The translations under genes and the position numbers were made by a program. A stretch of DNA of 64,000 nucleotides from Pelomonas sp. Root1444 (lineage in GTDB: Bacteria > Pseudomonadota > Gammaproteobacteria > Burkholderiales > Burkholderiaceae_C). Below, in pieces: positions 15,906 to 16,065 of this stretch (the stretch's first letter is position 1; every line of letters starts with the position of its first letter). The notes below the pieces were generated by a model that was not told the origin of the DNA, did not search any database, and saw only the letters and a list, made by a program, of their open reading frames with translations. The stretch is taken from the NCBI RefSeq assembly GCF_001426885.1, contig NZ_LMFP01000003.1, forward strand, positions 627,306 to 691,305. The letters run 5' to 3'.

Positions 15906-15944
15906 AAAACACGAACGGCCCGCTGCGGTTGCATACGGGCCGTT
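15906..15944 (-). terminator. Attenuator terminator upstream of the leuA pair
   Basis: On the minus strand AACGGCCCG (15944-15936) pairs with CGGGCCGTT (15922-15914) across a 13-nt loop, followed by CGTGTTTTC. It lies between the leader peptide stop and the leuA start, as expected of a transcription attenuator. A second, smaller hairpin (15973-15996; CTAG-GAACC arms) covers the leader stop codon. The competing antiterminator could not be resolved by eye. Confidence 0.7.
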
Positions 15945-15972
15945 GGGGTCAGAAGTGCGAAGGCGTGACTGA

Positions 15973-16029
15973 CTAGCGAACCCGTGGTTCCTCTAGGGCT
16001 AGTAGCAGCAGGCCGGTCGCGAAATTCAT
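15973..16029 (-). CDS. leuL: Leucine leader peptide
   Basis: The 18-codon frame encodes [18 protein letters not shown]. It contains four consecutive leucine codons (CTG CTG CTA CTA) and, after one Ala codon, another CTA. CTA is rare in this GC-rich DNA, so the run should be a sensitive sensor of charged tRNA-Leu. Stalling here would favour an antiterminator over the terminator that follows. There is no Shine-Dalgarno sequence before the ATG. A plausible promoter places the transcript start at or within a few bases of the ATG, so translation may be leaderless. Too short for standard gene finding. Confidence 0.75.
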
Positions 16030-16037
16030 GGGGTTGG

Positions 16038-16065
16038 AATCTAGCACAGAAGCCTATTGGTGCAA
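16038..16065 (-). promoter_or_regulatory. Putative promoter of the leucine leader and leuA operon
   Basis: On the minus strand TTGCAC (16060-16065) and TAGATT (16038-16043) are 16 bp apart, matching four of six positions of each sigma-70 box. The -35 box lies in the last codons of pssA. The predicted start of transcription falls at about 16029-16031, right at the leader ATG. Confidence 0.5.

Follow-up and report, generated by a model that had tools for sequence, protein, structure and literature searches.

Do the two adjacent leuA genes of Pelomonas sp. Root1444 lie behind a leucine attenuator, and does the RNA of this attenuator begin at the start codon of its own leader peptide? A sequence-only reading of the window (i.e. 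the whole stretch of 64,000 nucleotides analysed here) had suggested both, pointing to an 18-codon frame that carries CTG CTG CTA CTA, one Ala codon and a further CTA. The frame is indeed present on the minus strand at 16029-15973, and consists of 18 codons and a stop (ATG AAT TTC GCG ACC GGC CTG CTG CTA CTA GCC CTA GAG GAA CCA CGG GTT CGC TAG). It is located between pssA, whose stop codon ends at 16054, and leuA, the distance from the end of pssA to the ATG being 24 nt.

On the minus strand of the window, the genes for the large and small subunits of acetolactate synthase, ilvC and pssA precede the leuA pair, in this order. The first and second leuA share a 4-nt overlap (window 12637-15872, minus strand). 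They belong to different subfamilies, and such an adjacent pair was present in all 20 genomes of the genus that were searched. This genus, assigned from the named loci that come nearest to the window in LeuA, comprises Roseateles and Pelomonas. The start codon of the first leuA is probably the ATG at 15863, which follows GGATGG; the N-terminus of LeuA is MLKQP or alike in most rows of a set of 100 related loci. Ahead of the acetolactate synthase gene, inspection by eye showed no Leu-rich leader. An opposite-strand ORF of 139 aa (16939-17358, plus strand) lies between pssA and ilvC, and gave no match in an NCBIfam scan. The features of the leader region and of the leuA pair are as follows.

16060..16065, minus strand: -35-like TTGCAC, in the last codons of pssA (sequence).
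16038..16046, minus strand: extended -10, TGC TAGATT (TAGATT 16043-16038), 8 nt before the leader ATG (sequence).
15973..16029, minus strand: leader ORF (proposed leuL), predicted leaderless (sequence and comparison).
15973..15996, minus strand: predicted hairpin 1:2, spanning the last Leu codon through the stop codon, competitor of the antiterminator when no ribosome is present (folding).
15979..15985, minus strand: putative antiterminator strand ACGGGTT, in the codons Pro-Arg-Val (motif conservation).
15936..15944, minus strand: 5' strand of the terminator stem, AACGGCCCG, also the putative partner of the antiterminator (alignment and folding).
15923..15932, minus strand: terminator loop segment, GCAACCGCAG, predicted to pair with the downstream element (complementarity and covariation).
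15905..15922, minus strand: 3' strand of the terminator, CGGGCCGTT (15922-15914), with an interrupted U-tract (sequence and folding).
15889..15899, minus strand: candidate anti-loop element, CTGCCGGTTGC, able to pair with the terminator loop if one base is bulged (complementarity and covariation).
14175..15872, minus strand: first leuA, 565-aa type (NF002991, TIGR00970; family match).
12637..14178, minus strand: second leuA, 513-aa type (NF002087, TIGR00973; family match).

A lack of conservation of the Leu run in close relatives had been named beforehand as the result that would speak against an attenuator. The comparison gave the opposite result: a Leu-rich ORF was found ahead of leuA in 99 of the 100 related loci, corresponding to 86 distinct leader regions, using a loose criterion (three Leu in six residues, any start codon, 420 nt); the single exception (L049) has no upstream sequence. 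The 100 rows comprise 20 loci of the window's genus and 80 named loci, with the same genomes partly repeated, and the leader ATGs of two of them (L047 and L079) were assigned by hand. The shuffled control for the Leu-rich ORF refers to an order-wide set of 59 loci (see below). The ends of the leader peptides vary by clade (PRVR, PRAR, HGRRR, hereafter the GRRR type, and RHGQAW). One locus (L033), whose LeuA is 94% identical to that of the window, has a similar leader. Two longer leader peptides, taken from related loci, had no match in Pfam or NCBIfam.

A covariance model of the leader, built from 50 leaders, matched the window's own genome once over its full length (E 1e-24), the next-best match (E 0.003) being limited to the terminator part. 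The model matched 131 of 150 genomes of the family, some of which had also provided training sequences, and 113 of 126 genera (E 0.01 or better); 19 of the 150 genomes gave no match at this cut-off. One family genome contained two strong full-length matches (G176:C77:111322-111434 and G176:C12:563-671, with E 1.7e-20 and 4.0e-20). Sixty of the 131 matched genomes were fetched, considering full-length matches only, and removal of four repeats of earlier loci left 56 further loci, whose leader features are not independent of the model. According to the rule used by us, an ATG leader is present in 52 of the 56; the other four have none by this rule, and in one of them (L251) a GTG frame fits by eye. 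As for known RNA families, a search of the window with Rfam 15 at the gathering score matched a tRNA alone and left the leader without a match; with E up to 10, two matches were obtained in the window, both on the other strand and far below gathering, and no match was found in six related loci.

The leaders are rich in the rare codon CTA, which accounts for 201 of the 363 Leu codons in the 86 leaders (just over half) and for none of the 242 Leu codons in seven genes of the window. All of the 86 leaders, and 51 of the 52 further ATG leaders, contain at least one CTA; the codon is rarer in the order-wide leaders (27 of 257 Leu codons). Rare CUA codons are known to matter in the enteric leu leader.

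Behind the leader, a 9-bp terminator stem is formed by AACGGCCCG and CGGGCCGTT (15944-15936 and 15922-15914), with a folding energy of -21.4 kcal/mol (z -4.55). The sequence-only reading had placed here a 9-bp stem with a T run before leuA; the stem stands, and the T run proved to be interrupted (CGTGTTTTC). The window shows a short ORF with tandem Leu codons directly before a biosynthetic gene, and between them an intrinsic terminator with an interrupted U-tract, as in attenuators of the leu class. The core stem is kept in all 79 distinct rows of 82 aligned loci, and a terminator was found in 50 of the 56 further loci. The terminated RNA is predicted to be about 124 nt long, and would end at the 3' side of the terminator. 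In many other families of the order (among L147-L195), the leader ends in LLLAGLLLRxAR* or similar, and inspection by eye of the same loci revealed in many of them no terminator with a clear T run behind the leader, L150 being an exception; leaders of this kind may work by Rho or on translation.

The last codons of the leader contain a motif that the sequence-only reading had not mentioned. Of 82 loci, 79 carry NCGGG (with N = A, C or T) in the tail of the leader, compared with 20% in shuffled sequences; the motif is absent in the other three, and was found in only 33 of the 52 further leaders. The motif occupies two different reading frames (41 and 38 loci), which implies conservation of the RNA and not of the peptide. 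ACGGG(TT) is complementary to (GG)CCCGT of the terminator 5' strand, and could form an antiterminator with it. In the window, the competing hairpin 1:2 has a predicted energy of -8.1 kcal/mol (z -2.79).

The dependence of this putative switch on the ribosome was evaluated by folding RNAs that end before the terminator 3' strand, with a model ribosome that blocks the RNA up to 15 nt past the P-site (an assumed footprint). Over the 79 loci, the expected number of antiterminator pairs was 1.23 without a ribosome (below 1 in 56 loci), 5.55 for a ribosome placed on the penultimate Leu codon (more than 4 in 74 loci) and 0.000 for one at the stop codon. The corresponding values for the window were 0.07 without a ribosome, about 6.1 on each of Leu codons one to four, 4.2 on the fifth and last, and 0 at the stop. 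When the stretch upstream of CGGG was shuffled, the pairs expected without a ribosome rose from 1.23 to 3.77 (79 loci, Wilcoxon p 3e-12), which indicates that the competing hairpin is selected. Since 23 of the 79 loci keep at least one antiterminator pair without a ribosome, the rule that no translation means termination is not valid everywhere; likewise, with the ribosome on the last Leu codon the antiterminator is lost in many leaders of the GRRR type (values near 0 to 3), so that in these the ribosome must stall at a Leu codon further upstream. Folding thus predicts an antiterminator whose formation excludes the terminator and depends on where the ribosome is, giving the classical switch in most loci, in agreement with the ribosome-mediated layout first proposed. 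It should be noted that RNAalifold, applied to 50 full leaders, sees the terminator as the only consensus helix, and not this switch, so that covariation gives hairpin 1:2 and the antiterminator no independent support; both are based on folds of single sequences and on the conserved motif. In several clades, codons near the start of the leader look complementary by eye to the sequence behind the stop (GACGT/ACGTC, GATTT/AAATC), as if a base stem closed the leader; RNAalifold does not find such a stem.

The other part of the proposal was that the leader ATG has no Shine-Dalgarno (SD) sequence and is preceded by a promoter, at 16038-16065 on the minus strand, that would start transcription at the ATG itself. 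The promoter elements lie at this place, with TTGCAC inside the end of pssA, a spacer of 16 nt, TGC followed by TAGATT, and 8 nt before the ATG. A consensus scan of the window, which required 4/6 matches or more in each hexamer, where TTGCAC has 3, and loop lengths between 3 and 8 nt, listed neither the leuL promoter nor the leuL terminator; with three matches of six and the loop limits of the scan, the site is no textbook match. Among 85 deduplicated loci, a -10 box (TANNNT with at least 4/6 matches to TATAAT, searched 3-12 nt before the ATG) ends 6-10 nt before the ATG in every case (shuffled mean 4.6, maximum 9), and is preceded by TGn in 78. An SD motif (AGGA, GGAG, GAGG or AAGG) at the SD position before the leader ATG occurs in none of the 85; as a loose yardstick, a broader SD-like pattern is present before leuA itself in 48 of them. 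The further loci gave a similar picture, with a -10 box in 50 of the 52 ATG leaders and an SD motif in none. Conservation of the -35 is less evident: in the window's family, TTGC at a spacer of 16-18 nt is found in 18 of the 85 loci (shuffled mean 1.3, maximum 5), and a -35 with at least 4/6 matches in 26 (shuffled 11.3, maximum 18), so that the -35 appears to be weakly kept in this family and the extended -10 to be the common feature.

For the order as a whole, the regions upstream of the 513-aa leuA were considered; 60 were fetched of the 105 order genomes with a match, and one (L159) was too short, which left 59. Of the 59, 35 contain a Leu-rich ORF that begins with ATG and is preceded by a -10 box at 5-10 nt, compared with a mean of 0.375 and a maximum of 2 in 40 rounds of dinucleotide shuffles; the other 24 loci do not have such a leader. 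The figure of 35 is an unpicked count. Separately, 36 leaders were picked by eye, 34 of them with a -10 box, and 33 for the -35 test were drawn from them. The arrangement TTGC, spacer of 16-18 nt, TANNNT and then ATG occurs in 31 of these 33 eye-picked leaders (shuffled mean 0.46, maximum 2), the spacer being exactly 17 nt in 27; at least 4/6 matches of the -35 to TTGACA were counted in 12 of the 33 (shuffled 5.2, maximum 10). The order-wide shuffles, together with the recurrence of the leader in 99/100 and 52/56 loci, rule out a chance ORF. An in-frame GTG that overlaps the -10 box was considered as the start and rejected, because the spacing from the -10 box to the ATG varies by single bases and the frame is not kept.

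An SD motif is missing, and the predicted promoter is placed so as to start transcription at the start codon, as expected of a leaderless mRNA. Given the usual distance from a -10 box, the 5' end would coincide with the ATG or precede it by a few bases. The leaderless layout suggested for this locus is well supported by the comparison of loci, if unproven.

A further feature, absent from the sequence-only reading, emerged downstream of the leader, where the terminator loop is complementary to an element before leuA that covaries with it. The loop of the window is GCAACC-GCAG (15932-15923); 14 nt separate the stem from the element CTGCCGGTTGC, which is followed after 16 nt by the earliest possible start of leuA (15872). 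The local complementarity score between loop and element is at least 6 in 84 of 85 loci, the failing one being L108; the 85 rows leave out L068, which was missed by the terminator pattern. The mean score is 8.70, vs 7.34 (maximum 7.58) when the downstream regions are swapped between loci and 5.19 (maximum 5.37) in shuffles. Alignment of 82 sequences showed that 89.4% of the alignment cells of the loop-element helix are paired and that four of its 11 pairs have changed on both sides. The covariation score of the terminator and the loop-element helix taken together is 0.104 vs 0.054 in shuffles (0/500 as high); the number of further pair types in the same two helices is not remarkable, 52 of 500 shuffles being as high. 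On the LeuA tree, the variable loop-element pairs have changed repeatedly, with 20 parsimony steps at one and 11 at another. The outer pairs are weaker, being unpaired in 25/79 and 21/79 rows.

The covariance model covers neither the promoter nor the element, and both tests in the further loci are therefore independent of it. Out of 50 further loci with a terminator, 37 reach a score of at least 6 (shuffled mean 11.4, maximum 18), and the mean of 7.13 compares with 5.78 after swapping (maximum 6.17) and 5.15 in shuffles; loops of quite different sequence are included. Folded as a simple hairpin in the window, loop and element give -16.7 kcal/mol, which is not clearly better than shuffles (z -0.95).

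On these grounds, we consider, with a probability of about 85%, that the region is a leucine attenuator of the ribosome-mediated type whose leader peptide is leaderless. Transcription would start on the leader ATG or no more than a few bases away from it, and a ribosome, probably a 70S particle on the 5'-terminal AUG, would begin the 18-codon frame at once. In vivo, the switch would then be expected to respond to leucine. When charged Leu-tRNA is plentiful, the ribosome would reach the stop codon and cover the ACGGG strand, so that the terminator would form and release the RNA of about 124 nt. A stall on the Leu codons, about half of which are the rare CTA, would block hairpin 1:2, ACGGGTT would pair with GGCCCGT of the terminator 5' strand, and with the antiterminator formed the polymerase would read through into both leuA genes.

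In cis, base pairing between the terminator loop and the anti-loop element, which lies shortly before the ribosome-binding site of leuA, would be possible in the read-through RNA only. Such pairing might fix the antiterminated fold, might influence the translation of leuA from its position close before the SD, or might make the message a target of the released RNA. We tentatively suggest a second stage of control, which we hold to be somewhat less probable than its absence: once the polymerase has read through, the anti-loop element would bind the terminator loop, and would either form an H-type pseudoknot together with the terminator stem or give a hairpin by which the antiterminated fold is maintained. 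The translation of leuA or the stability of its message would be set in this way, and the released terminated RNA could compete in trans for the same element.

Other explanations of the same data must be considered. The attenuator could be real and yet lie on a longer transcript coming from pssA or from further upstream, with SD-independent initiation and a -10 box of secondary importance. The end of pssA only 24 nt before the ATG, the common direction of the acetolactate synthase genes, ilvC, pssA and leuA, and the poor conservation of the -35 in the window's family (TTGC at 16-18 in 18/85) would all suit such a transcript, but it would leave unexplained a spacing of 6-10 nt between -10 box and ATG in 85/85 loci with an SD motif in 0/85, and the same layout recurs in families with a different distance to pssA; nor is the GTG overlapping the -10 box kept in frame. 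We regard this origin of the RNA as unlikely. Far less credible still is an ordinary fixed terminator after pssA next to a chance ORF, with no sensing of leucine. The terminator alone is strong enough for that role (-21.4 kcal/mol), but the Leu codons, the CTA bias, the CGGG in two frames and the ribosome-dependent fold are all conserved, and the -10 box at the ATG recurs.

The loop and its downstream complement could also be read as the arms of an inverted repeat in DNA, i.e. an operator bound by a protein, with no RNA pairing involved. The arms are 23 bp apart in the window, as would suit a dimeric regulator, and each is partly conserved. This reading is not favoured, and has in our opinion a low probability, because the arm sequences differ between genera yet stay complementary, their spacing varies, and in the window's genus the loop arm, and this arm alone, is one base shorter, the opposite base then varying freely. 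Of comparably low probability is an action in trans of the leader peptide or of the released RNA, like that of peTrpL and rnTrpL of Sinorhizobium. A leaderless small mRNA of the same kind is reported there (PMC7298713), and the leuA message does carry an element complementary to the loop; but the peptide ends differ by clade (PRVR, GRRR, HGQAW), what is conserved being an RNA motif in two frames, and genome-wide, sequences complementary to the loop are only modestly more numerous than in the control (73 vs 54 for the reversed pattern).

The leuL attenuators of Escherichia coli and Salmonella share with the window a short ORF before leuA, tandem Leu codons including the rare CUA, alternative hairpins and an intrinsic terminator. 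The enteric leuL has a 5' leader and an SD sequence, whereas the leader of the window is predicted to have neither, and matches no Rfam family.

The closest precedent is that of Streptomyces lividans TK24, in which a leaderless LeuL1 with the Leu run MRFGLLLLSCRGEGL precedes leuA, leuL and others being reported as leaderless leader peptides of this species (PMC8079986); as a leaderless Leu-run leader before leuA, it is closer to the present case than the trpL of Sinorhizobium. LeuL1 is reported to have no typical Rho-independent terminator (PMC8079986), whereas leaders of the window type have a strong terminator and an antiterminator motif, both conserved. The LEU element, which precedes leuA in most Actinobacteria, likewise combines a Leu-codon leader before leuA with a proposed pseudoknot, in which the Leu codons pair with the leuA SD; its authors hold classical attenuation unlikely (PMC1262725). 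The pairing predicted for the window is a different one, between the terminator loop and an element upstream of the SD, and the window leader has a terminator, a feature with which the LEU element is not described in the available text (PMC1262725).

The trpL (rnTrpL) of Sinorhizobium meliloti, to which the sequence-only reading had likened the leader, is an apt comparison: the RNA is reported to start at the leader ATG, and the attenuator to release a small RNA (PMC7298713), as is predicted for the window. It differs in its Trp codons, in belonging to the Alphaproteobacteria and in the trans activity reported for it (PMC7298713). For the ilvBNC attenuator of Corynebacterium glutamicum, also an attenuator of branched-chain amino-acid genes, the authors discuss leaderless initiation; operon and phylum are different, and the title gives a three-hairpin model (PMC11857589). 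The ilvB leader of Corynebacterium diphtheriae is reported as a leaderless leader peptide (PMC5784534). Leaderless mRNAs have been reported in transcription start site studies of Burkholderia cenocepacia (PMC4603805) and Cupriavidus metallidurans (PMC7563307); in the main texts of both, as available, the terms 'leu' and 'attenuat' are absent.

Among titles and abstracts, which cover the field in part and leave most of the subscription literature outside, no betaproteobacterial leucine leader and no terminator-loop pairing of such kind was recognized. A 2004 attenuator review by Vitreschak and colleagues, cited in PMC8079986, may include leuA leaders of Betaproteobacteria. Leaderless leader peptides as such are already known from Actinobacteria and rhizobia; what appears to be new, within the literature searched, is the recurrence of the leaderless layout across an order, and the covarying element.

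The leuL described here adds a gene too short for routine annotation. If the second stage is true, the combination of a leaderless sensor and a covarying clamp behind the terminator would be a layout not found described in the literature searched. More generally, these results would extend leaderless attenuation of leucine synthesis to the Burkholderiales, where the layout with the promoter on the ATG recurs in many families of the order, and the many natural variants of the leader may help to understand how ribosomes that start without an SD sequence keep pace with RNA polymerase.
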